A stretch of 39,247 nt of DNA from a virus, in the IMG/VR virus record IMGVR_UViG_3300042895_001352, positions 1 through 39,247 of that record, one strand, 5' to 3'. The translations under genes were made by a program, and so were the position numbers. The notes under the pieces were generated by a model. The model had not been told where the DNA came from. It was given only the letters and a program-made list of their open reading frames with translations, and did not search any database. Position 1 is the first letter of the stretch. Each line of letters opens with the position of its first letter. Shown here piece by piece: positions 5,761 to 38,340 of this stretch.

Positions 5761-5768
5761 TATTTATA
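5761..5768 (+). promoter_or_regulatory. TATTTATA motif before 5786 gene
   Basis: Exact TATTTATA, 17 bases before the ATG at 5786; it lies in the 41-base gap after the previous stop codon. Confidence 0.55.
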
Positions 5769-5785
5769 TTAAAACACTTATAATA

Positions 5786-8700
5786 ATGGAAAAAAATATA
5801 TTAAATGAAATAACCAGACTCCAAGATTTGATGGGAATTTACACTAAACCATTAATTAACGAGAAAAAAAATACAGAAAAAAGATTAATATCTGAAATAA
5901 AATTAAAAACTAAACTTAATTTTCCTGACGTTAAATTATTTGATAAGTTTAGAAACTCGTCGAATTTTAAAAACATAGGTGGTTTATTGGATTTTAATTT
6001 TAAAAATCTTGGAGGATTTACCACTACACCACAAAATATAGATGGACTTATAAAACATTTAACGGACTTTAAACCAATTTGGATTGCGTCTTTAGTTGAC
6101 AACGGAGATAGTATTCAAAAGGCAACTGGCGCCATCAATAGTTCGTTATCGACTTTAAATAAAATAAAAAATAAATCACTAAAGCTAAATTTAGGAGACC
6201 TTGTTCCGGGCAAAAACTATCGTGTTTATGAAACAATTCCTAAAGAGGGTGGATTAAGAACCGCAGTATTAGACCAATACAAAAAAAAATACGGGATTAA
6301 GACATGGGATGAGTTTAAAGTTAAATTGGGTAAAAGTGCAGACGAGTTAAAACAACTAGACGCAGACGTTAACGCGGTTAGTGACGCAATAAAGAATGCT
6401 ACTGTACCTAAAGTTAAAGGAGGATCAACACCAAATCCTAAAGGAACAACAACACCAACCCTTTCACCTAGCGGTAGATATAAGGTAGGGACACCCGGAC
6501 ATACAGTAGAATCAACACCAAAACCTGATGGGAGTGGGTATTATGTGTGGAAGGATGTGAAAGATGAATGGCTAGGTGCTGGTGGTAAAAATAAAAATAC
6601 TTTATTAGATGAGGCTTTTAAAGAAGGTTGGAGACCGGGAGATGAGATACCCGATAAATTTAAATCCGGATACGCATCAACAACAAAAACTGATGTAGAT
6701 CAAATATTTGATGGATCCACAAACCTAAAAGAAAAAATAACCAATGTTAATAAAACTATAGACCCTAGAAATCCAACATACACTATTGATGAACTTAAAC
6801 GAAAATTTGGTATTGAGGGGGATGGTACACCCGAACAAATGTCTAAATTGGAAAGGGCTTGGGATGCTGGATATAGAGGGGATTCAAAATTTATAATAGA
6901 CGATGATTTAATAGTTAAAGATACTAAATTATCTGTGGAAAATTTAATTGGAAAAACTAAAGATACGGATGGTAATAATAAAAAATGGACTTTTGACGAA
7001 TCAAAAAAACGTTTTGGTTTAGATGATGATGCACCATCTGGTGATTATGAAAAATTTTACAACGCATGGAACGAAGGGTGGAGACCTAAAAATAAAAATG
7101 GTGAAACCATACCTGTAGAACCTAAATATCAAACAGAATTATATAAAAGACAACAAGAACTTAAAGCCGGTGATTTTTTTAATAATTTACCGAAAGAAAC
7201 AACAAAAGCACCTGGACCATTAACAAAAACTTGGTTGTGGATTCGACAAAATTTAATGTATAGACAAGCATCGACATGGGAAGATATACTTAGAAAATCG
7301 GCAGATGGAGATATTATTAAAACCAAACTCATGAATAGGTTGAGAGATGGTATTAATAAATTAAATTCCAAAAACTTAAATAGTATTAATCTTAACATAA
7401 TAAGGGAAGAGATATTAAAGGCAGGATTTGAAGGTGACGTTAAAACTGCTTGGGCTAAAAGTACAACAGATATCTATAAATCACAATTAATTAAGGAGTT
7501 AGAAACATCTGGTTTGGACGAAGCGAGGTTGGCCAAGGCGATAGAAGTTACTAATGACTTTTTTGATAAGTTGAATGGGGCTAAGTCTATTCAGGATCTT
7601 GATAATTTAAAGGGTGTATGGTCTTTAAAAACCGGAGAATATAATGGTTTAACTATTATAGATGAGTTAAAAAAAATTGCAGAGTCGGATGGTGGTACTA
7701 TGAAAATTCTACGTGGGGCTTATGGTTCTGATGTGGGTAAAGGTTTCTTAAATACAGTTTTAAATAGAAGTATAAATTTAATTAAATCGGGTAGTGTTTT
7801 TACACGTGCGGAGATATTAGCGTTTAGGGCTGCTAAAAATTTTACAAAGAATTCTGCTAAATATGATTTGTTTTGGAGGATCGTCTTTAAAAAAATACTT
7901 ATACCTACAACCTATGCTTTCATGGCATATTGGGCAAACACTGGAGCAATAATATTTGAGGAGAAGACTAATTGGAATTGGTTTAAATTAGATCAAGAAC
8001 CAATGTGGAAGCAAATCTTAAAAGGGATTGCTAATGGGTTTTTAGTTACTCAATTTTTTGATGGTCAAGAAAGAAGCGCTTTTGGTTACTTTTTACAATC
8101 TCTTACAAATATGTCAGGTACTGAACTTGATGATATTGCTTTAAGGATTTTTACCGCTAAAGGTAAAGAAAAGGATACCGTAACAGACCCTTATAAAATA
8201 AAATATGTTGAAGCCGGTACTAATATTGCGAATATTTATACATTTGAAGATAAATGGGTATACTTCCCAAGAGGTAAGTTTGGGTCTTACGATGAGGTAC
8301 AAGCTGAAATATATAAACTAAAAACTGATGGAGTTAAGGTTGTATGTGATGAAACGGACTATAGTGATAGTAGTCCTAACTCAGAAAGATTAAGTATTCC
8401 GAATGAGCTTGCCAAGTTTTGTAAATCTTGGAAATGTAACAAAGAAACGGGTAATTGTGCTGAAGTTACAGACGGAACTGGTGTGTACAAAACAAGAGAG
8501 GAGTGTGTAGGGAAAAGTAATTGTAAAAACGCAAGTCAAGATTATGAAAAGGAAAAAAAGAAAACGGAAGATGCTGAGAAGTTAAAAAAGGCCAAAGAAG
8601 AATATGAAAAATCCCAAAACAAAACAACAACAGTTACTCCAGGACAAACAGTTGAATATTTGAAGGTTGTTGCAAATAGAGATCTAAATATATCGAATAC

Positions 8701-9883
8701 TGCTGAATATACGCCAATGACAGAATATGGTATAAATTATAATAATAATCCAGTTTGGAGTCGTACTATTGGTGACATGATTTTTTTATTGTCTATTGAC
8801 GGTAATAATAAACTTTATAAAAAGGAATATCCTTCATCTAAATATTACGACGGTAGTATTAAAACAGAACAAAAAGTGTCCGATATGAGTAATACAAGTG
8901 GATGGATTTTAGTACCAGAAAAAACAAACGAAAGTATTGACAAAATAATAAAAAATATATTATCATCTAATATGGAAATAAGAAAAAGAAGAATCTTCGA
9001 ACAAGAAGATGAAAAGAGATTTGGTGAAAACAAATATGATCACCTTTACGACGCATTTACTTTTGAAAAGTACGATGATAAAACTGGTGAATTTAAAGAA
9101 ATTGAGACCGACTCTTTAAAACATGGAAAAATTAAAGAAAGATTTAACGACTTTATTAAAAGATATGACACCGACGATGCGTTCGTTAGGGCAGTTGTTG
9201 ATACACACGAAGACATTGCTAGAATTAAATACCTTAAAGACCAAGCAAATATTAGTGAGGCGTACTTAGCAACAGGTTTAGCGTTAGTACTTAACTCCAT
9301 TAGAGAATCAAAAGGTGAATATGAAATATTTTCAGTTAGTCGATCAAACGGAAACTGGCATTTAGTAAAAGGAGATTTTAACCAAAAAGAAATGTCAAAA
9401 ATGAAACTTACAAAACAAATTCCACCTGAGAAACAACCTAAGAAAAAAGAAAACGGCGTAGAGTCGTTAAAAAAAAAAGAACTGACAGGAATAACTCTTC
9501 TGAATCAAGATGAAAAAAAAGGTTTGGGTGAACTACCTATGCAGATTAAAAGGAAAGTATTAGAAAAACTTAGAAGTGGATGGGTTACTGAAAAACCATA
9601 TGAATTTTTAAAAGAATTTTATAGTGTTAGCGATATAAACTCAGTATTCAACGACAAGATTAAAATATATAAGTTAAACCCAACAAAAGAATTTTTTGAG
9701 TCTTTGGCTCAAAATTCGCCAAGAGTATTTATTAGGAAAGGTTTTTGTAAGTCTTTAAATGTAATAAAGAATACAAAAATTAGTAGTGAAAGTGGAGAGA
9801 AGATTTTTAAACATATTTTAGATAAATGTCAAACAAAATTTAAAGGCGAATATGGAGTTACCCAGATTAATAAATATTTATGA
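5786..9883 (+). CDS. Giant virion-type protein with GWRPG repeats
   Basis: 1365 aa, the second largest gene here. Residues 1-26 are the shared leader (EKNILNEITRLQDLMGIY, then LINE). A Thr/Pro linker lies near residues 210-235. Between about 250 and 460 a degenerate repeat of roughly 55-75 residues occurs three times, each with an AW/AF..G(W/Y)R core: FKEGWRPGDEIPDKF, AWDAGYRGD and AWNEGWRPKNKNG; the first and third run on into (I/V)P/EP.K(F/Y). A hydrophobic segment (ILIPTTYAFMAYWANTGAII) is near 705-725. A Cys cluster near 875-915 (FCKSWKCNKETGNC, EECVGKSNC) precedes a Lys/Glu coiled-coil stretch. The C-terminal 300 residues are charged and helical, with an internal RRIFEQEDEK that resembles a leader cut site. 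It is probably a virion protein; its enzymatic role, if any, is unknown. Confidence 0.6.
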   Translation: MEKNILNEITRLQDLMGIYTKPLINEKKNTEKRLISEIKLKTKLNFPDVKLFDKFRNSSNFKNIGGLLDFNFKNLGGFTTTPQNIDGLIKHLTDFKPIWIASLVDNGDSIQKATGAINSSLSTLNKIKNKSLKLNLGDLVPGKNYRVYETIPKEGGLRTAVLDQYKKKYGIKTWDEFKVKLGKSADELKQLDADVNAVSDAIKNATVPKVKGGSTPNPKGTTTPTLSPSGRYKVGTPGHTVESTPKPDGSGYYVWKDVKDEWLGAGGKNKNTLLDEAFKEGWRPGDEIPDKFKSGYASTTKTDVDQIFDGSTNLKEKITNVNKTIDPRNPTYTIDELKRKFGIEGDGTPEQMSKLERAWDAGYRGDSKFIIDDDLIVKDTKLSVENLIGKTKDTDGNNKKWTFDESKKRFGLDDDAPSGDYEKFYNAWNEGWRPKNKNGETIPVEPKYQTELYKRQQELKAGDFFNNLPKETTKAPGPLTKTWLWIRQNLMYRQASTWEDILRKSADGDIIKTKLMNRLRDGINKLNSKNLNSINLNIIREEILKAGFEGDVKTAWAKSTTDIYKSQLIKELETSGLDEARLAKAIEVTNDFFDKLNGAKSIQDLDNLKGVWSLKTGEYNGLTIIDELKKIAESDGGTMKILRGAYGSDVGKGFLNTVLNRSINLIKSGSVFTRAEILAFRAAKNFTKNSAKYDLFWRIVFKKILIPTTYAFMAYWANTGAIIFEEKTNWNWFKLDQEPMWKQILKGIANGFLVTQFFDGQERSAFGYFLQSLTNMSGTELDDIALRIFTAKGKEKDTVTDPYKIKYVEAGTNIANIYTFEDKWVYFPRGKFGSYDEVQAEIYKLKTDGVKVVCDETDYSDSSPNSERLSIPNELAKFCKSWKCNKETGNCAEVTDGTGVYKTREECVGKSNCKNASQDYEKEKKKTEDAEKLKKAKEEYEKSQNKTTTVTPGQTVEYLKVVANRDLNISNTAEYTPMTEYGINYNNNPVWSRTIGDMIFLLSIDGNNKLYKKEYPSSKYYDGSIKTEQKVSDMSNTSGWILVPEKTNESIDKIIKNILSSNMEIRKRRIFEQEDEKRFGENKYDHLYDAFTFEKYDDKTGEFKEIETDSLKHGKIKERFNDFIKRYDTDDAFVRAVVDTHEDIARIKYLKDQANISEAYLATGLALVLNSIRESKGEYEIFSVSRSNGNWHLVKGDFNQKEMSKMKLTKQIPPEKQPKKKENGVESLKKKELTGITLLNQDEKKGLGELPMQIKRKVLEKLRSGWVTEKPYEFLKEFYSVSDINSVFNDKIKIYKLNPTKEFFESLAQNSPRVFIRKGFCKSLNVIKNTKISSESGEKIFKHILDKCQTKFKGEYGVTQINKYL
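9875..9882 (+). promoter_or_regulatory. Promoter-like TATTTATG at start of small RNA
   Basis: A 7/8 match to TATTTATA, embedded in the last codons of the 1365-aa gene. Initiation from it would begin a transcript at roughly 9887 that covers only the noncoding stretch up to the terminator at 9984-10016. Confidence 0.35.
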
Positions 9884-9886
9884 TAA

Positions 9887-10016
9887 AAGAGTTACTTGTT
9901 CTCTTTACACAAAAACAAAGAAACTTCGAGTAGATTCTTAGTTTCATAAACTTTAAAGAAAGGGAGGTGTTCCAAAATCTAAGAAAGGTATTCCGAGAGG
10001 AATACCTTTTCTTTTA
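9887..10016 (+). ncRNA. Putative small RNA complementary to 16S rRNA 3' end
   Basis: About 130 bases between two genes with no reading frame. At 9963-9974 it contains GGAGGTGTTCCA, a 12-base complement of TGGAACACCTCC, the Bacteroidota form of the 16S rRNA 3' end that includes the anti-Shine-Dalgarno. With G9962 bulged, AGAAA at 9957-9961 continues the pairing to the last 16S nucleotides (TTTCT). The site lies in the loop of a possible 7-bp stem, TTCTTAG at 9935-9941 with CTAAGAA at 9979-9985. A strong intrinsic terminator follows at once. No start codon lies downstream at usable distance, so it is not an ordinary ribosome binding site. The 5' end is a guess from the TATTTATG motif. It could bind or sequester 16S tails, compete with Shine-Dalgarno mRNAs, or act as a 30S decoy; this is inference. 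Confidence 0.5.
9984..10016 (+). terminator. Strong intrinsic terminator
   Basis: Perfect 11-bp stem AAAGGTATTCC / GGAATACCTTT around a GAGA tetraloop, followed by TCTTTTATT. It ends the putative small RNA and isolates the upstream virion gene from the tail-fibre region. Confidence 0.9.
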
Positions 10017-10022
10017 TTACGG

Positions 10023-10030
10023 TATTTATA
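10023..10030 (+). promoter_or_regulatory. TATTTATA motif before 10035 gene
   Basis: Exact TATTTATA, directly after the terminator and ending 4 bases before the ATG at 10035. Confidence 0.6.
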
Positions 10031-10034
10031 TTAT

Positions 10035-10820
10035 ATGGAATTCAATATTAGAAAAGGAGCAACACTACCATTTATTGAGGTTAATTTAATTAAGGACGGA
10101 AGAACTGACTATAATTATGTCGGAACGAACCTTAGTGGTAATACCATTTATTTCTACATGAAAAATGTGGAAACAGGATTTTATAAAATTTCAAATTCAA
10201 TTGCAACTTTTTCAACAATCGATAATACAATATATTACCAATTTACAAAAAAAAATACTAATACTGTTGGTAGGTATGAAGGTGGATTTAAAATATATTC
10301 AGATCAGGGGTTAATTGATATACCGTTAAGAAATAAAATATTTATAAACGTTTTAGAGTCGATCAGTAATGTGGATTTTTGTTGTGGAAAAAATAAAAAT
10401 GAGACGCCAATTATAACGCCCACTCCGACACCAACACCAACACCTACTCCGACACCAACACCAACACCTACTCCGACACCAACACCGATAAATGATACTG
10501 CATATTTTTGGGCTAGTTATAATCTTATTCCTCCTTATGATAATAATACCGTTGTTAGTATTAATACGGTAGCAAACGCCACGGATGCGGAAAATTTAAT
10601 ATGTAGTTTTCTTCCTAGTGGTCCTTATTGGTACGGGTATTATATAAATGTGAGTACACCAATAAGTCTCGGATTTCTATTTCCTTATGGTGGTAGTGCG
10701 AATTTCATCTTGACATATAATGGAACCTCACCAATTGATTTTAATTATAATACATATTGGGTTGTTACTGATATTAATGGTTATGTTATTGAATACACCT
10801 TGCTAAACTACCCATGTTAA
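10035..10820 (+). CDS. Baseplate/tail protein with BppU-like N-terminus and PT linker
   Basis: 261 aa. Residues 1-120 resemble the N-terminal Ig-like domain of BppU-type upper baseplate proteins: an opening I-x-K-G-x-x-L-P strand, GNTIYFYMKN, and a strand ending in YEGGFKIYSDQG. A Cys pair (DFCCGK) ends the domain. A rigid (TP)n linker of about 12 repeats follows, then a C-terminal beta domain of roughly 110 residues rich in Tyr, Trp and Asn (YWYGYYINVSTP) ending in Cys. This layout of anchor, linker and tip fits a receptor-facing tail protein, and the long fibre gene follows. The family assignment of the N-terminus is tentative. Confidence 0.6.
   Translation: MEFNIRKGATLPFIEVNLIKDGRTDYNYVGTNLSGNTIYFYMKNVETGFYKISNSIATFSTIDNTIYYQFTKKNTNTVGRYEGGFKIYSDQGLIDIPLRNKIFINVLESISNVDFCCGKNKNETPIITPTPTPTPTPTPTPTPTPTPTPTPINDTAYFWASYNLIPPYDNNTVVSINTVANATDAENLICSFLPSGPYWYGYYINVSTPISLGFLFPYGGSANFILTYNGTSPIDFNYNTYWVVTDINGYVIEYTLLNYPC
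10425..10486 (+). repeat. 24-base tandem repeat coding TP linker
   Basis: Two full copies and a partial third of CCGACACCAACACCAACACC plus TACT, in frame, coding Thr-Pro dipeptides. Copy number could vary by slippage and change linker length. Confidence 0.9.
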
Positions 10821-10857: not shown

Positions 10858-10865
10858 TATTTATA
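10858..10865 (+). promoter_or_regulatory. TATTTATA motif before fibre operon
   Basis: Exact TATTTATA, 12 bases before the ATG of the 1600-aa fibre gene. No terminator separates it from 10035-10820, so read-through is possible. Confidence 0.55.
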
Positions 10866-16436: not shown

Positions 16437-17107
16437 TGGCAGGAAGAATATCATATTACGGAAACATAGTAAAAAATGGTTTAGTACTAGATTTAGATGC
16501 GGCAAAACGAGATTCATATCCCGGAACAGGAGCGGCATGGAACGATATAAGTGGAAGTGTGAATAACAAAACATTAATAAATGGCCCGACATTTTCAAGC
16601 ACAAACGGAGGGTCAATATTATTTGACGGGACCAATGATTATTTATCTAACAATTCATACAATCCATTTGTAGTTGGGTCGATGACTTATGAAATTGTAT
16701 TTAAAGCAAATTCTAATCCAATTAATGGTCCGTTAGGTTCTTCAGATATTGTAAATACAACACCTTATTTTTATTTAGATTATGGAGGTGGGAATATCAG
16801 AACATATCATTTTGCCAGTTCTCCTCAATATTTTACAGTGCAATCCTTATCTGTCGGCACAATTAATCATTTTGTGTGCACAAGAAACGGATTAACTGAA
16901 AGTAATTACGTTAACGGTACCGGTACATTAGGTAGGACTTTATTTAGCTCTGCGGGAAATTCAAATGGTTTTGGGGGTGTGGGTGGATTTTCAGCATTAT
17001 CTTTATATTTTAACTGTAATATATATTTAATTAGAATCTACAACCGAGCATTATCCGCATCAGAGGTCCTACAAAACTATAATGCAACAAAAGGAAGATA
17101 TTTATAA
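16436..17107 (+). CDS. LamG-like lectin tail protein 2
   Basis: 223 aa, with its start overlapping the preceding stop (TAATG). It has the same order of motifs as its neighbours: NGLVLDLDAAKRDSYPGTG, WNDISGSVNNKTLINGPTF, GGSILFDGTNDYL, HFVCTRNGL...YVNGT and a terminal IRIYNRALSASEVLQNYNA. That C-terminal string is almost identical in the 17373 gene. It is probably a receptor-binding or decorating tail protein. The TATTTATA motif for the next gene overlaps its last codons. Confidence 0.8.
   Translation: MAGRISYYGNIVKNGLVLDLDAAKRDSYPGTGAAWNDISGSVNNKTLINGPTFSSTNGGSILFDGTNDYLSNNSYNPFVVGSMTYEIVFKANSNPINGPLGSSDIVNTTPYFYLDYGGGNIRTYHFASSPQYFTVQSLSVGTINHFVCTRNGLTESNYVNGTGTLGRTLFSSAGNSNGFGGVGGFSALSLYFNCNIYLIRIYNRALSASEVLQNYNATKGRYL
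17099..17106 (+). promoter_or_regulatory. TATTTATA motif before 17110 gene
   Basis: Exact TATTTATA inside the final codons of the upstream lectin gene, 3 bases before the ATG at 17110. Confidence 0.5.
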
Positions 17108-18079: not shown

Positions 18080-18087
18080 TATTTATA
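18080..18087 (+). promoter_or_regulatory. TATTTATA motif before 18092 gene
   Basis: Exact TATTTATA, 4 bases before the ATG at 18092. Confidence 0.6.
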
Positions 18088-18091
18088 TGAT

Positions 18092-18883
18092 ATGGCAAAT
18101 GAGTTAAACATAAAAAACGGATTTATATCCAAAGGAAATTCCACAGTGGATGGGATAATTAGTGGGACAACATTTAAGAACGACACCATAGACACGTCAG
18201 CAAGAAATTTATTTGCATCAGATTTAACACCAACCATTGATTGGGAATCTTGTTTATTGGCTGGTTTAGGTGGTTCTTCATCATTTGATTGGAACCAAAG
18301 ATTAATGTACGATACTGGGCCTAATTTAGTGATTGATTGGCAAAATCTAATATTGTACGACGGAGCAACCAACGTTGTTTTGGATTGGCAAAATAAAATA
18401 ATGACTGGTATGACAAACATACAGTCATCTACAATTTCCGCAACATCTTTAAATTTAAGCGGATCACAAATAGACTCCGCTTGGACATCTTATGTTCCGG
18501 TTTGGACTGCCGCGTCTGTTAATCCTGTAATTAATAATGGGACAATAGAAGGGTACTATAAACTAATCGGTAAAACTTGTTTTGTAAGAGGTAATATTGC
18601 GATGGGTAGTACGACAACATTTGGTACTGGTGAGTGGTACGTGTCAATGCCGTTTACTGCTGCTAATGCGGATGCAATATTAATGACTGCGACTTTATTG
18701 GATAATGGATCTGCTTGGTATAATGCAACTATGGTAGGGGGTAGAGCTGGATTCAATAATAAAGCTCCCTTACAATATGTAAATTTTACAAATGGAACTG
18801 CAAGTGATGTAAACGCAACTCAACCATTTACTTGGGCAAGTACTGATAGATTTATTTGGAACGGATCATACGAAATTGCTTAA
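18092..18883 (+). CDS. Tail fibre / receptor-binding tip protein
   Basis: 263 aa. The N-terminus (ANELNIKNGFISKGNSTVDG) is a typical fibre anchor strand. Residues 45-110 hold a repeated short motif, (I/F/V/L)DW(E/N/Q)..L(L/M/I)..., seen as TIDWESCLLAG, SFDWNQRLMYD, VIDWQNLILYD and VLDWQNKIMTG, a beta-helical repeat. After NIQSSTISATSLNLSGS there is a compact C-terminal domain (residues about 130-263) with IEGYYKLIGKTCFVRGNIAMG, which resembles the tip domains of phage fibres that measure YxxxG..V strands. It is the last tail gene before the convergent DNA glycosylase, whose 3' end overlaps it by 18 bases. Confidence 0.7.
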   Translation: MANELNIKNGFISKGNSTVDGIISGTTFKNDTIDTSARNLFASDLTPTIDWESCLLAGLGGSSSFDWNQRLMYDTGPNLVIDWQNLILYDGATNVVLDWQNKIMTGMTNIQSSTISATSLNLSGSQIDSAWTSYVPVWTAASVNPVINNGTIEGYYKLIGKTCFVRGNIAMGSTTTFGTGEWYVSMPFTAANADAILMTATLLDNGSAWYNATMVGGRAGFNNKAPLQYVNFTNGTASDVNATQPFTWASTDRFIWNGSYEIA

Positions 18884-19357
18884 TTCAAAATATATTCGTT
18901 CTTTAGTACCAACCATCTGTTTATACCACAACCCCTTATCATCCATCCAAACATAAGGATCGTCAGGATTATCGGTCCACCCGTGTTTAGAATAATAGTC
19001 AAAATCTTTTCTTAATAAATTTGATCTATGAGATGAATGAAAATCTTCGTCACCCAACCAATGAGGTAAAACGAACTCACCCTCAATTACATCATACTCC
19101 ATTGTGTTTTTAAAACCACGAGACTTCCACACGTCAATAGAGTCGTTGTAATACTGTTTAAGTGCATTTACATAATCACGCCACATAACAGAACACGGAT
19201 GTGATGTCCAACCTTTATAGGGTTGTCCGTTTTTCTTTGGTCTACCTGTGATTGCCGATATGATCTGATAAGCCTCAACACGTTGTTTACCTAAACGTTT
19301 ATTGTCTAAAGATTCTAATGATTTTCTAAAATCTGAATATGGAAGGAATGTTTGCAT
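18866..19357 (-). CDS. Pyrimidine dimer DNA glycosylase-like protein (PF03013 type)
   Basis: 163 aa if started at the ATG at 19357; an upstream in-frame ATG at 19375 would lie inside the promoter box. The N-terminus MQTFLPYSDFRKSLESLDNK followed by RLGKQRVEAYQII and the HPCSVMWRDYVNALKQY motif match the MSMEG_6728-type family related to T4 endonuclease V, which acts on UV-damaged DNA. Typical members run MQTFLPY.DF...A..LD..RLGKQR...... HP.v.MW.gY. The C-terminal half (LPHWLGDEDFHSSHRSNLLRK) also fits. It would be a cytoplasmic repair or DNA-processing enzyme. It lies antisense to the tail module and ends in TGA. Activity is inferred only. Confidence 0.7.
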   Translation of the reverse strand: MQTFLPYSDFRKSLESLDNKRLGKQRVEAYQIISAITGRPKKNGQPYKGWTSHPCSVMWRDYVNALKQYYNDSIDVWKSRGFKNTMEYDVIEGEFVLPHWLGDEDFHSSHRSNLLRKDFDYYSKHGWTDNPDDPYVWMDDKGLWYKQMVGTKERIYFELSNFV

Positions 19358-19361
19358 ACCA

Positions 19362-19369
19362 CAAAGATA
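19362..19369 (-). promoter_or_regulatory. Bacteroidota-type -7 box for glycosylase gene
   Basis: On the minus strand this reads TATCTTTG (consensus TAnnTTTG), 4 bases before the ATG at 19357. No clear -33 TTG is present at the usual distance, so the promoter may be weak. Confidence 0.45.
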
Positions 19370-19450
19370 CAACAATTTTTGATATAACCGATTGACTTAA
19401 ATGATTTTTTATGATATATATTATATAAATAAACGTTTAATTTTTATAAA

Positions 19451-21657: not shown

Positions 21658-22067
21658 GGTGGAGGTGCGGAGGCTCGAACTCCGGTCCATAATATCCTGT
21701 CAGATAAGGACTACACGTTTAGGTTGACATTTTCTAACGTCCCAAAATATTTGATTTTTTACTTGACCAAAAACAAGGTTAATCCGTTCTTCATCATCGT
21801 AGATCAACAACCAATGAACGACTCGATTTCGGGTTCAGTCGTATTCCACCTTAAAGGACTTCTGTTGCTAGGTTATATGTCCATCGACCCCCGTTTCCGT
21901 GCTTAACTTAAGCTACAGTAACTTGCTCAGTTGCAATTAAACCAACCACTGAAAGGTTATCAAGTACGTTGCCGTATATAAATGTGAATCAGTTTTTAAA
22001 GAGATTAATTCAGTCTCTACGTGCCCTTATTCCTCAGCCGATACCTGTCAAATCCAAAAACACCCCC
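21658..22067 (-). ncRNA. ssrA: tmRNA (trans-translation RNA) with unusual tag
   Basis: About 410 nt on the minus strand. The 5' GGGGGTG (22067-22061) pairs with CACCTCC (21667-21661) as the 7-bp acceptor stem with one G-U pair. The 3' half has a perfect T arm (CGGAG TTCGAGC CTCCG), and TTTGGATTTGACAGG near the 5' end is the conserved D-loop region (GGATTCGACGGG in E. coli). The discriminator A is followed by encoded CC. The mRNA-like part has a resume codon GGC at 21973, preceded by TATAC with U and A at -5 and -4 as in E. coli. The predicted tag begins GNVLDNLSVV, ends ATEQVTVA, and stops at TAA in a small hairpin (GCTT/AAGC). The tag is 21 residues and lacks the usual ALAA end. It would rescue stalled ribosomes; a host tmRNA presumably also exists. 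Confidence 0.9.
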
Positions 22068-26675: not shown

Positions 26676-28712
26676 TCATTTTTTTCTTTTTGCTGGTTTT
26701 TTTACTTTAACCTCAGTTTTTTTATCCGTTTCATTATATGACAAGATAAATTTAGACCCCTTCTCTGGATTATCCGATAATATTTTTTCAGTTACCGAAT
26801 CATCCACCCATTTTTGAATTGTCCTTTTTAATATTCTCGCTCCGAACCTTGTATCGGTACCAACAGAAATGATGTGTTTTTTCAAACTCTCGTCCACCTC
26901 CAAATCAAACTCAATACTTTCAATTCTTTTATATACCTTTTCAAGTTCCAAGTCAACTATTTTTAATAAATCAGTTTCACTAAGGTCTTTAAAATAAATA
27001 ATCTCATCGAAACGATTTATAAATTCAGGTGCAAACTTTTTAAATAATTCTTTCTCTAAAACCGATTTTATCTCCTCCTCTCTTTTTTCAATTTTGGATC
27101 CCGTTGAAAACCCAACCCCTGTACCAAAATCCTGAACAATTTTTGTTCCGATATTAGATGTCATCAAAATAATACAGTTTTTAAAGTTGATCTTTCTTCC
27201 GTGACCATCAGTTAAAAACCCTTCATCTAACATTTGTAAAAATATGTTAAAAATTTCAGGGTGAGCTTTCTCAATCTCATCTAATAAAATAACCGAATAT
27301 GGTTTGTTTTTAATCTTATTTAAAAACGGAGAACCATCTTCATACCCAACATAACCTGGTGACGTTCCCGTTAATTTTGATGTTGCAATTTTATCTGAGA
27401 ACTCACTCATATCCAATCTGATTAACGAATCTTCAGAATTAAACATATGTTTTGCAAGTTGTTTTGCCAACTCCGTTTTACCGACACCCGAATTACCAAT
27501 TAATAATCCACTGAATATTGGTTTTTTTGGATCGTTTAATCCCACTTTATTTCTTTGGATTGCTCTTGATATTTTTGCAACCGCATCTTCTTGTCCGATA
27601 ACCTTTGTTGATAGTGTTTCTTTTAGGGTTCTTAATTGTTCTGTCTCATCGGTCGACACTTTGCTAACCGGAATCTTTGTCATTAAGGTTACGACATCAT
27701 ACACAACGTCTTCAGTCACTTCTCTTTTAAATAGGTTTCTATTTTTTTCAAACTCAGATTTTTCTCTTTCTAAGTCTGATATGATCTTTCTTTCTTTATC
27801 TCGTAAATTTGCCGCTTCCTCATATTTCTGGCTGTTGATAACCCTAACCTTTTCTTCTTTTATTTCATTGGCTTGTCGTTTTAAGTCCTCAATAATTTCA
27901 GGTAATTTAATTTCAACCTGAGATCTCGCCCCAACCTCATCAATAATATCAAACGCCTTATCAGGAAACTCTCTATCTGTAATATATCTATCAGCCAGTT
28001 CAACACATAATCTTAATATGTCGTCGCTATATGTGACTTTATGATGATCTTCATATCTGTTTTTTGAATTTTGGAGTATCATTAACGTCTCTTCTTTCGT
28101 TGATGGGTCAACCATTACCTTTTGGAACCTTCTTTCCAATGCTCCGTCCTTTTCAATGTTTTTTCTGTATTCCTCTAATGTGGTTGCTCCGATACATTGT
28201 AACTCACCTCTTGAAAGTGCCGGTTTAAATATGTTGGAAGCATCCATTGATCCTGATGAATTACCAGCACCAATCATTGTGTGGATTTCATCAATAAAAA
28301 TAATGATATCAGGATTTGCATATAATTCTTCAATGATAACCTTCATTCTTTCTTCAAATTGACCACGATATTTTGTTCCTGCAACAATTGATGTCATATC
28401 CAAAGAAACAATTCTTTTTCCTGATAAGTTTTGAGGACAATCCCCCTCAAATATTTTTTTGGCCAAACCTTCAACAATTGCAGTTTTACCACAACCAGGT
28501 TCACCTAATATAATAGGGTTATTTTTCTTTCTTCTTGAAAGTATTTGTGCAATCCTATTAATTTCGTTTTCTCTACCAACAACAGGATCCAATTTACCTT
28601 CCTCAGCCAATTTAATAAGGTCTCTTGAAAAGTTATCTAATACCGGAGTTTTTGTTTTGGTTTCCGCGTTTTTATTTTTAGATTTGTCTGATTCGTCGTA
28701 AGATTCAATCAT
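26676..28712 (-). CDS. ClpC/ClpA-like two-domain AAA+ unfoldase lacking the N-domain
   Basis: 678 aa. After a charged disordered tail of about 25 residues it enters the first AAA+ domain: LDPVVGRE, Walker A GEPGCGKT (70-77), Walker B IIIFIDEIH near 140, and Arg finger ALERRF. A short middle region has a UVR-like motif (YEEAANLRDKERKI), as in ClpC, not the long ClpB coiled coil. The second AAA+ domain has Walker A GNSGVGKT near 410, Walker B VILLDEIEKAHPEI, APEFINR and sensor-2 RFGARILKR. A GVGFS loop near 532 sits where ClpC carries its VGF ClpP-docking tripeptide. The roughly 140-residue Clp N-domain used for adaptors is absent. It likely unfolds substrates for the host ClpP with altered selectivity. 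It ends in a Lys-rich tail and TGA. Confidence 0.88.
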   Translation of the reverse strand: MIESYDESDKSKNKNAETKTKTPVLDNFSRDLIKLAEEGKLDPVVGRENEINRIAQILSRRKKNNPIILGEPGCGKTAIVEGLAKKIFEGDCPQNLSGKRIVSLDMTSIVAGTKYRGQFEERMKVIIEELYANPDIIIFIDEIHTMIGAGNSSGSMDASNIFKPALSRGELQCIGATTLEEYRKNIEKDGALERRFQKVMVDPSTKEETLMILQNSKNRYEDHHKVTYSDDILRLCVELADRYITDREFPDKAFDIIDEVGARSQVEIKLPEIIEDLKRQANEIKEEKVRVINSQKYEEAANLRDKERKIISDLEREKSEFEKNRNLFKREVTEDVVYDVVTLMTKIPVSKVSTDETEQLRTLKETLSTKVIGQEDAVAKISRAIQRNKVGLNDPKKPIFSGLLIGNSGVGKTELAKQLAKHMFNSEDSLIRLDMSEFSDKIATSKLTGTSPGYVGYEDGSPFLNKIKNKPYSVILLDEIEKAHPEIFNIFLQMLDEGFLTDGHGRKINFKNCIILMTSNIGTKIVQDFGTGVGFSTGSKIEKREEEIKSVLEKELFKKFAPEFINRFDEIIYFKDLSETDLLKIVDLELEKVYKRIESIEFDLEVDESLKKHIISVGTDTRFGARILKRTIQKWVDDSVTEKILSDNPEKGSKFILSYNETDKKTEVKVKKPAKRKK

Positions 28713-28887: not shown

Positions 28888-29253
28888 ATGTTATTTAGAA
28901 ACTTTTACAACTTAAACCGTCTATTTAAAGACTTAGAACTATCTCAGTCAGAAACTGATGATGGGGAGTGGGAAAGAAAAACGTATGTATCAGACACCGG
29001 TCTATTTTCGTATTCATACGTAATAAGAAAACCAAAACAAATGGATGAGGTATCATCATTAAAAAAAGAATTAGATAAACGTATTGAGGAACAAGATTTT
29101 GAAGGGGCGGTTGAGATAAGGGACAAAATAAAAAGTTTGGAAAAAAACAAAGAGAAAATAAGTAACCTTAAAAAACAATTGGACGAATCAATTAAACTCC
29201 AAGACTTTGAGAGGTCAATAGAATTAAGAAACAAGATCGACTCCCTAAAATAA
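28888..29253 (+). CDS. Small protein with two UVR motifs
   Basis: 121 aa. Residues 1-55 contain a Tyr/Lys-rich N-terminal part (YVSDTGLFSYSYVIRKPKQ). Then two helical UVR hairpins follow: LDKRIEEQDFEGAVEIRDKI and LDESIKLQDFERSIELRNKI, matching the E.QdfE.A.elRDkI pattern of UvrB, UvrC, ClpC and McsA. In Gram-positive bacteria McsA, with a UVR motif, works with ClpC. The divergent ClpC-like gene has its own UVR-type middle segment, so an adaptor or regulator of that unfoldase is a reasonable idea. A role in DNA repair is the alternative, although no Uvr enzyme is nearby. A terminator follows 5 bases after the stop. Confidence 0.75.
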   Translation: MLFRNFYNLNRLFKDLELSQSETDDGEWERKTYVSDTGLFSYSYVIRKPKQMDEVSSLKKELDKRIEEQDFEGAVEIRDKIKSLEKNKEKISNLKKQLDESIKLQDFERSIELRNKIDSLK

Positions 29254-29877: not shown

Positions 29878-29885
29878 TATTTATA
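29878..29885 (+). promoter_or_regulatory. TATTTATA motif before nucleotidyltransferase gene
   Basis: Exact TATTTATA, 3 bases before the ATG at 29889. Confidence 0.6.
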
Positions 29886-37347: not shown

Positions 37348-37607
37348 AAAAGTTTTTTAAATCGTTGTTAGGTGGCGGTTCAACAACATTATCATCTAAA
37401 AGATTTACAGGTATTATTTGTGTAATATCTTTAGTGATCTCATTATTTGTATCTTTATTTTCAGCAGGAAAATTAACACCAAACGAATCATTAATTGATG
37501 TTATCGCTCTTTTATCTTTTGGGTCTTTGGGTCTTACGTCTACTGAGGTGATTTTCTCAAAAAAGAAAACCGATAAAAAAGAAGAAGAGAATCAATCAGC
37601 AGAATAA
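37344..37607 (+). CDS. Small two-span membrane protein, possible holin
   Basis: 87 aa with two likely membrane helices: about residues 21-41 (FTGIICVISLVISLFVSLFS) and 50-70 (LIDVIALLSFGSLGLTSTEV), a basic N-terminus and a Lys/Glu-rich C-terminus. Size, two spans and charged tail fit a class II-like holin. However, it lies in the head module away from the lysin, and T4-type phages have other small membrane proteins (e.g. for prohead attachment to the membrane), so holin is only one option. A terminator lies 34 bases downstream, within the antisense bS21 gene. Confidence 0.65.
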   Translation: MKKFFKSLLGGGSTTLSSKRFTGIICVISLVISLFVSLFSAGKLTPNESLIDVIALLSFGSLGLTSTEVIFSKKKTDKKEEENQSAE

Positions 37608-37777
37608 TTCTTTTGATTATATATTGCCTTTTGAATTTGAGCCCTTCGTTCTACGGAGGGTTTTTTGTATTCTTTTCTTTCCTGTAATTTTTGGATTTGT
37701 TTTGTTTTGTATATTTTAAACTTATATGCCTTTAACGCTTGTTCTATATTTTTATTGTTTACCGGTATAATTAGCAT
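37592..37777 (-). CDS. rpsU: Ribosomal protein bS21, phage-encoded
   Basis: 61 aa from the ATG at 37777, chosen because MLIIPV is the usual bS21 start in Bacteroidota; a longer frame to 37828 adds 17 residues with no counterpart and would remove the TATTTATA site from upstream. The order MLIIPVNNKNIEQALKAYKF, KTKQIQKLQERKEYKKPSVE and RRAQIQKAIYNQK follows the family closely. bS21 binds the 30S platform near the 16S 3' end; in Flavobacterium it helps hide the anti-Shine-Dalgarno. No Shine-Dalgarno sequence precedes this gene. Phage bS21 has been reported in other large phages. It likely replaces host bS21 late in infection. Its 3' end overlaps the convergent membrane gene by 16 bases. Confidence 0.9.
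   Translation of the reverse strand: MLIIPVNNKNIEQALKAYKFKIYKTKQIQKLQERKEYKKPSVERRAQIQKAIYNQKNYSAD
37642..37666 (+). terminator. Intrinsic terminator inside antisense bS21 gene
   Basis: CCCTTCG / CGGAGGG stem (one G-U pair) with a TTCTA loop, followed by six T. It would end the 36616-37607 transcript. On the other strand the same bases code the conserved KKPSVERR segment of bS21. Confidence 0.75.
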
Positions 37778-38332: not shown

Positions 38333-38340
38333 TATTTATC
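38333..38340 (+). promoter_or_regulatory. TATTTATC motif before protease gene
   Basis: 7/8 match to TATTTATA, 12 bases before the ATG at 38353. Confidence 0.5.

Follow-up and report, generated by a model that had tools for sequence, protein, structure and literature searches.

Positions 9886-10015 of the window, by which we mean the whole 39,247-nucleotide stretch of viral DNA analysed here (IMG/VR record IMGVR_UViG_3300042895_001352), are, as comparison with related phages indicates, one copy of a phage RNA that is conserved and structured, stands at a 3' end and measures about 130 nt in family 1. To judge from its predicted pairing, the purine tract of this RNA is a start-codon-less copy of the extended Shine-Dalgarno (SD) sequence that Flavobacteriales use for rpsU only. 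We propose, with a probability of roughly 0.4, that the RNA would capture the free anti-SD of 30S subunits that are poor in bS21.

Architecture and recurrence of the RNA

The element comprises, in this order, an H-type pseudoknot and then a hairpin that abuts CATAAAC (both in family 1, to which the window belongs), the CATAAAC motif itself, the purine tract, an AATCTA motif and an intrinsic terminator (Table 1). The strongest evidence for an RNA at this locus is the pseudoknot. The best pseudoknot of the window is equalled by 2 of 100 shuffled sequences and those of ten other family 1 members by 0-1 of 100, and in an alignment-free test the best pseudoknot beats nearly all shuffles in 11 of 15 members. 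The initial annotation had proposed a search for covariation in related phages, and the pseudoknot, the hairpin and the terminator all prove to covary. Both pseudoknot stems have double-sided changes at all 12 aligned pairs; with P3 and the terminator included, 22 of 27 pairs in the alignment have such changes, against 13.0 after shuffling, and 87.1% of the alignment cells pair, against 74.7%. The covariation score is 0.483, compared with 0.250 for shuffles, which ignore relatedness, and 0.09-0.18 for slid structures, a control that preserves it. The R1 model is shallow. In families 1 and 2 alike, base changes in the terminator compensate each other, and the 11-bp terminator stem that had been described is real. 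On this comparative evidence the window locus is a conserved structured RNA.

Table 1. Features at the RNA locus and the phage bS21 gene, in window coordinates
Feature	Position	Strand	Evidence or remark
Upstream gene	5786..9883	+	unrelated to upstream genes of other copies except L130/G004
TATTTAT promoter-like box	9875..9881	+	4 nt before the pseudoknot; none seen in the relatives read
H-type pseudoknot: stem 1 AAAGAG 9886-9891 / CTCTTT 9901-9906, stem 2 TTGTT 9896-9900 / AACAA 9914-9918	9886..9918	+	shuffles, covariation
Hairpin P3: GAAACT 9920-9925 / AGTTTC 9940-9945	9920..9945	+	covariation, family 1 alignment
CATAAAC motif	9945..9951	+	in families 2 and 3 the upstream gene has its stop codon here
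Purine tract AGAAAGGGAGGTGTTCCA, complementary to the 16S tail; extended SD-like, start codon absent 3'	9957..9974	+	duplex energies, start-codon scan
AATCTA motif	9976..9981	+	ATCTA kept also in copies located without using it
Intrinsic terminator: 11-bp stem 9984-9994 / 9999-10009, then T-rich run	9984..10015	+	compensatory changes
TATTTAT box before gene B	10023..10029	+	3' of the terminator
Gene B, conserved N-terminal domain, TPTP repeats	10035..10820	+	downstream neighbour in family 1 only
Phage bS21 gene	37592..37777	-	above the Pfam PF01165 cut-off; no SD, TATTTAT box upstream

Recurrence was followed by several routes. A gene B query gave eight relatives, all eight with the element upstream of gene B; an alignment query gave 80 loci, the closest 21 of which all have it; and pattern scans on the flanking motifs recovered the same family together with a second, family 2. 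With a covariance model built from 24 copies, 23 records of 23-297 kb, the majority of them sources of the model sequences, each gave a single strong match; the model also matched three more divergent copies (L261-L263), which form family 3. A less biased test of tract retention is a scan with the coding end and CATAAA only, which is blind to both the SD-like tract and the terminator: it returned 18 contigs, and the tract comes next in all 18. In G028, a relative that is more divergent again, AAAAGAAAGGGGAG is retained behind a homologous gene. The 16S-complementary bases, whose loss from related loci the initial annotation had set as a refutation of its own idea, are kept in relatives with diverged surroundings. 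CATAAAC is present in the family 1 copies located via gene B alone; its last base is T in L260, and the motif is absent from G028. The IMG/VR records are mostly fragments with inferred hosts.

A gene A query found no relative, and no credible one was found among cultured phage records (best blastn E 0.01); 296 Bacteroidota genomes, searched at E 1e-5 with strict filters and no positive control, gave no match. A plain 15-base pattern had at least 119 matches in IMG/VR, about the number that arithmetic predicts by chance, of which only L036 and L080 are homologous, and the additional model matches next to bS21 in G013 and G014 proved to be ordinary terminators.

The initial annotation had further suggested that a 7-bp stem could present the tract in a loop. 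No stem does so convincingly in the window, where the best candidate is no better than shuffles, nor are tract-presenting hairpins in most of family 1. A covarying stem around the tract is found in family 2 only (ATAAAC/GTTTAT, ATAAACC/GGTTTAT, AAATCACT/GGTGATTT and AACTACT/GGTAGTT) and beats most shuffles there; in many copies the tract is predicted to be partly paired. In L224 and L229 a strong predicted pseudoknot lies some 35-85 nt before CATAAAC, within the coding end of the upstream gene, where its relative position equals that of the pseudoknot of family 1.

The purine tract in its genomic setting

The 12-base complement to the Bacteroidota 16S 3' end on which the initial annotation was built is confirmed: GGAGGTGTTCCA occupies 9963-9974 exactly, is the sole exact copy in the window, and is the complement of TGGAACACCTCC, a real 16S tail of many sampled Bacteroidota genomes (GTGCGGCTGGAACACCTCCTTT), the exact-form tail GGAACACCTCCTTT likewise being met in many of the genomes sampled. 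Pairing does resume past a bulged G with AGAAA, and taken with AGAAAGG the tract has 17 of 18 matches to the 16S-tail complement, with one extra G. The predicted duplex of -22.0 kcal/mol is the top value among 7844 thirty-base windows on both strands, in a calculation that, like all energies given here, disregards protein and rRNA structure. As had been claimed, no start codon follows: the window has none of ATG, GTG or TTG at start-codon spacing 3' of the tract, and a start codon at SD spacing is absent from 26 of 27 element copies.

In F. johnsoniae the 16S tail is held by bS21, bS18 and bS6, and an extended SD, which forms 9-13 bp with the tail at -14 to -21 kcal/mol, occurs in rpsU only and works on ribosomes without bS21 (PMC9976891). 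Our own energies agree with that report. Host rpsU leaders, taken from whole genomes as a positive control, have extended SDs matched to the tail type of their own genome, with -19 to -22 kcal/mol in 8 of 10 genomes with an AACACC tail, -20 to -25 in 4 of 5 AAUACC hosts and -15 for the Chryseobacterium type. The window tract, at -22 kcal/mol, is predicted to pair as an rpsU-type extended SD does and about as strongly as the host leaders (about -22), and its sequence is similar to leaders such as GAAAGGAGGTGTCT, with equal 16S-tail energy; for both, binding would be expected only on ribosomes whose anti-SD is free. The rpsU leader, however, has a start codon and a gene, whereas the element has a terminator, plus the pseudoknot and hairpin in family 1, and is encoded by a phage whose own bS21, unlike host rpsU, has no SD. 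The bS21 gene that had already been recognised in this phage and 20 further phage bS21 genes reach just -0.1 to -6.2 kcal/mol with the AACACC tail, and window genes in general are without an SD (best -8.3).

bS21 is encoded by 18 of the 23 element carriers and by all three divergent carriers, and most fragments without the element are also without bS21. Co-occurrence is not strict: G025 (139 kb) has bS21 without the element, and G004 (281 kb) has the element without a PF01165 match; any of these records may be incomplete. The phage matches the bS21-encoding myoviruses of freshwater Bacteroidota (PMC9723584), since in both bS21 is a reverse-strand gene with terminase, portal and protease as its neighbours, and their bS21 and the element concern one region of the host ribosome; that paper describes the bS21 protein, and a term search of its text gave no mention of a non-coding or small RNA.

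In families 2 and 3 a conserved gene lies upstream, with its UAA inside CATAAAC, and the element forms its 3' UTR; it stands at operon ends, with the terminator next and often a convergent gene or a tRNA downstream; it is therefore not the leader of the next gene. The window and G004 have a different upstream gene, common to both, and have retained pseudoknot, hairpin and tract, so that the RNA is tied neither to one upstream gene nor to gene B. The initial annotation had seen a phage small RNA here. That it is a conserved structured RNA holds, but a separate small RNA fits less well: given the 3'-UTR copies with the stop inside CATAAAC, a 3'-terminal mRNA element or a 3'-UTR-derived RNA fits better than a small RNA with a promoter of its own. 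The TATTTATG box noted at the upstream edge does exist, as the TATTTAT 5' of the pseudoknot, and resembles the box before many phage genes, but it is not seen at this place in the relatives read and hints only weakly at a dedicated promoter.

TATTTAT is probably the late promoter box of this phage group. It lies 5-20 nt before at least a dozen window genes (for example at 2258-2264, 5761-5767, 10023-10029, 10858-10864, 17099-17105, 18080-18086, 29878-29884 and 38333-38339), and in the relatives read a box like it is found ahead of the phage bS21 genes. Elsewhere the window encodes a second translation-related RNA, a tmRNA (21658-22067, minus strand, tag ATEQVTVA), as well as a pyrimidine dimer glycosylase (18866-19375, minus strand), a ClpA/ClpB-like ATPase (26676-28712, minus strand) and a UVR-motif protein (28888-29253, plus strand). 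Otherwise different proteins from the plus-strand ORFs starting at 755, 2270, 2649, 5786 and 24368 open with a similar NE..R...LMG-like stretch, which may be a propeptide for targeting to the phage head.

The main rival to anti-SD capture is a cis-acting mRNA stabiliser of the STAB-SD kind, in which a 30S subunit held at the non-initiating SD next to the terminator would, along with the pseudoknot and the hairpin, shield the late mRNA from exonucleases with no action in trans. There is precedent in the STAB-SD of Bacillus cry3A, where RNase J1 is blocked by an SD that pairs with the 3' end of 16S but does not initiate (PMC4113751); the element has the same feature of an SD-like sequence without a start codon in the 26 copies counted above, its 16S pairing being predicted, and its 3'-UTR position behind a conserved gene, as seen in families 2 and 3, would suit a protector. 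STAB-SD, however, acts near the mRNA 5' end and protects the coding RNA downstream, whereas the element adjoins a 3' terminator with nothing else downstream, carries a conserved pseudoknot and occurs in a phylum that hides its anti-SD, which in the Bacteroidota 30S is normally inaccessible (PMC9976891). The RNA has, moreover, persisted in the window and G004, where the upstream gene was replaced. On balance we regard such a stabiliser as unlikely, though it deserves to be kept in view.

No Rfam 15 family reaches its gathering score at this locus, and the best match, BTnc231 (E 0.007), scores 22.9 bits against a cut-off of 80.4 and is not a member. Since the element lacks the 5' position of STAB-SD, the start codon of the rpsU leader and a sufficient Rfam score, we file it under none of these; it is a new conserved RNA family without an Rfam relative, and its novelty covers both the RNA family and the proposed target.

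Specificity of the predicted 16S pairing

Tract and 16S tail pair at a mean of -19.0 kcal/mol over 17 representatives, whereas permuted tails average -8.9; none of 1000 such composition-matched tails equals the real one, a result that family 1 and families 2 and 3 give separately. Single copies range from -12.5 to -23 kcal/mol, with weaker pairing in family 3 and G028 (-12.5 to -17.6), and the tract is the strongest 16S-tail site in 20 of 23 loci. Opposite 16S C there is G in 71 of 72 cases, opposite U a mixture of A and G, and opposite the first A of the tail T in 17 of 18; as the alignment was anchored on the motif the pattern is partly by construction, and we take this position-specific variation as suggestive only. 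Covariation with the host tail was also sought and found no support: family 2 prefers AUCACC tails, but its bS21 most resembles that of AACACC hosts, an assignment that rests on short proteins. In L211 (1488-1532) the tract reads GGAGATGTTC, which has one of the two changes in the complement of the Chryseobacterium-type tail (TGAGATG); its best pairing is still with the Flavobacteriales tail. From these comparisons the 16S complementarity of the tract appears to have been selected.

The tract might instead be recognised by another partner, a phage or host protein or RNA, its 16S complementarity being a by-product of a purine-rich motif. The varying run length of the purine-rich core, the conservation of CATAAAC and AATCTA, which is as good as that of the tract, and the partial complementarity of the tract to its own terminator arm (-8 to -17 kcal/mol) would all suit such a partner. 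Against it stand the permuted tails; the 16S tail, moreover, outpairs the terminator arm in all 14 cases compared, and family 1 keeps TGTTY, which lies opposite the 16S tail past the purine run, while the terminator arms change. We therefore think another partner improbable.

Pairing between tract and terminator arm, and the position of the element before gene B in family 1, would also allow a leader or attenuator acting on gene B and the tail genes, in which the SD-like tract would be the antiterminator. We dropped this on context, the element standing at operon ends in families 2 and 3 rather than upstream of gene B; in addition, the tract does not change along with the terminator arms (L218, L036), which do track each other, and a separate TATTTAT box serves gene B 3' of the terminator, so that we give an attenuator very little credence. 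A ribosome trap, in which 30S subunits would initiate at AUC UAA with normal SD spacing and stall, draws on the ATCTAA that many copies have 7-9 nt 3' of GGRGG; as a start codon AUC is very poor, and the idea was abandoned as hardly credible because the UAA is not kept in family 3 (ATCTAT, ATCTAC or ATCTAA). Finally, the initial annotation had thought a chance match unlikely, and by arithmetic the 12-mer alone would be expected in only about 1 in 200 windows as long as this one, but the element recurs independently, with covarying structure, in more than 20 phage records, which leaves practically no room for an assembly artefact; the window match to the 16S tail is not due to chance.

Proposed action at the anti-SD

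A start-codon-less SD of the rpsU type on a terminator-ended phage RNA fits a decoy or an unmasking role, and it is a plausible hypothesis that, as first suggested from the window alone, a phage RNA binds, unmasks or titrates the anti-SD. In the capture of free anti-SD that we tentatively prefer, the RNA would be made late in infection, either as an mRNA end or by processing of a 3' UTR. Its purine tract would anneal to the 16S tail in 30S subunits from which bS21 has been lost or which still await it. Such subunits would be kept off host rpsU mRNA, the one host transcript needing SD pairing, and the SD-less phage bS21 could then take the vacant site while resupply of host bS21 is blunted. Alternatively, the tract may help to draw the 16S tail from the pocket formed by bS21, bS18 and bS6; that a long SD may help to dislodge the tail has been suggested by the authors of PMC9976891. 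A phage RNA that pairs with the masked anti-SD tail and either extracts it from the bS21 pocket or prevents its return, so that SD-driven resupply of host bS21 is blocked and replacement by the SD-less phage bS21 is helped, is conceivable, if doubtful. Anti-SD capture accounts for neither CATAAAC nor AATCTA.

The literature searched (open-access PMC papers) gave no phage RNA aimed at the anti-SD. Such an RNA is what the element would be if it binds the 16S tail, and if it does so in trans it would be, to our knowledge, the first natural RNA aimed at the anti-SD in this way. Were the proposed mechanism true, the RNA would be the partner of phage bS21. McNutt et al. speculate that bS21 phages carry a product that aids bS21 exchange on the ribosome, and remark that rpsU autoregulation would counter this exchange (PMC9976891); a start-codon-less rpsU SD would be a concrete candidate for that product, or for a counter-defence block, and a published open question on bS21 exchange would become directly testable if the RNA binds the 16S tail. 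A family of giant Bacteroidota phages has one copy of this RNA per genome, and its predicted pairing with the usually hidden 16S tail, as strong as that of the host bS21 gene, suggests that a virus may tamper with the ribosome of its host by means of an RNA.
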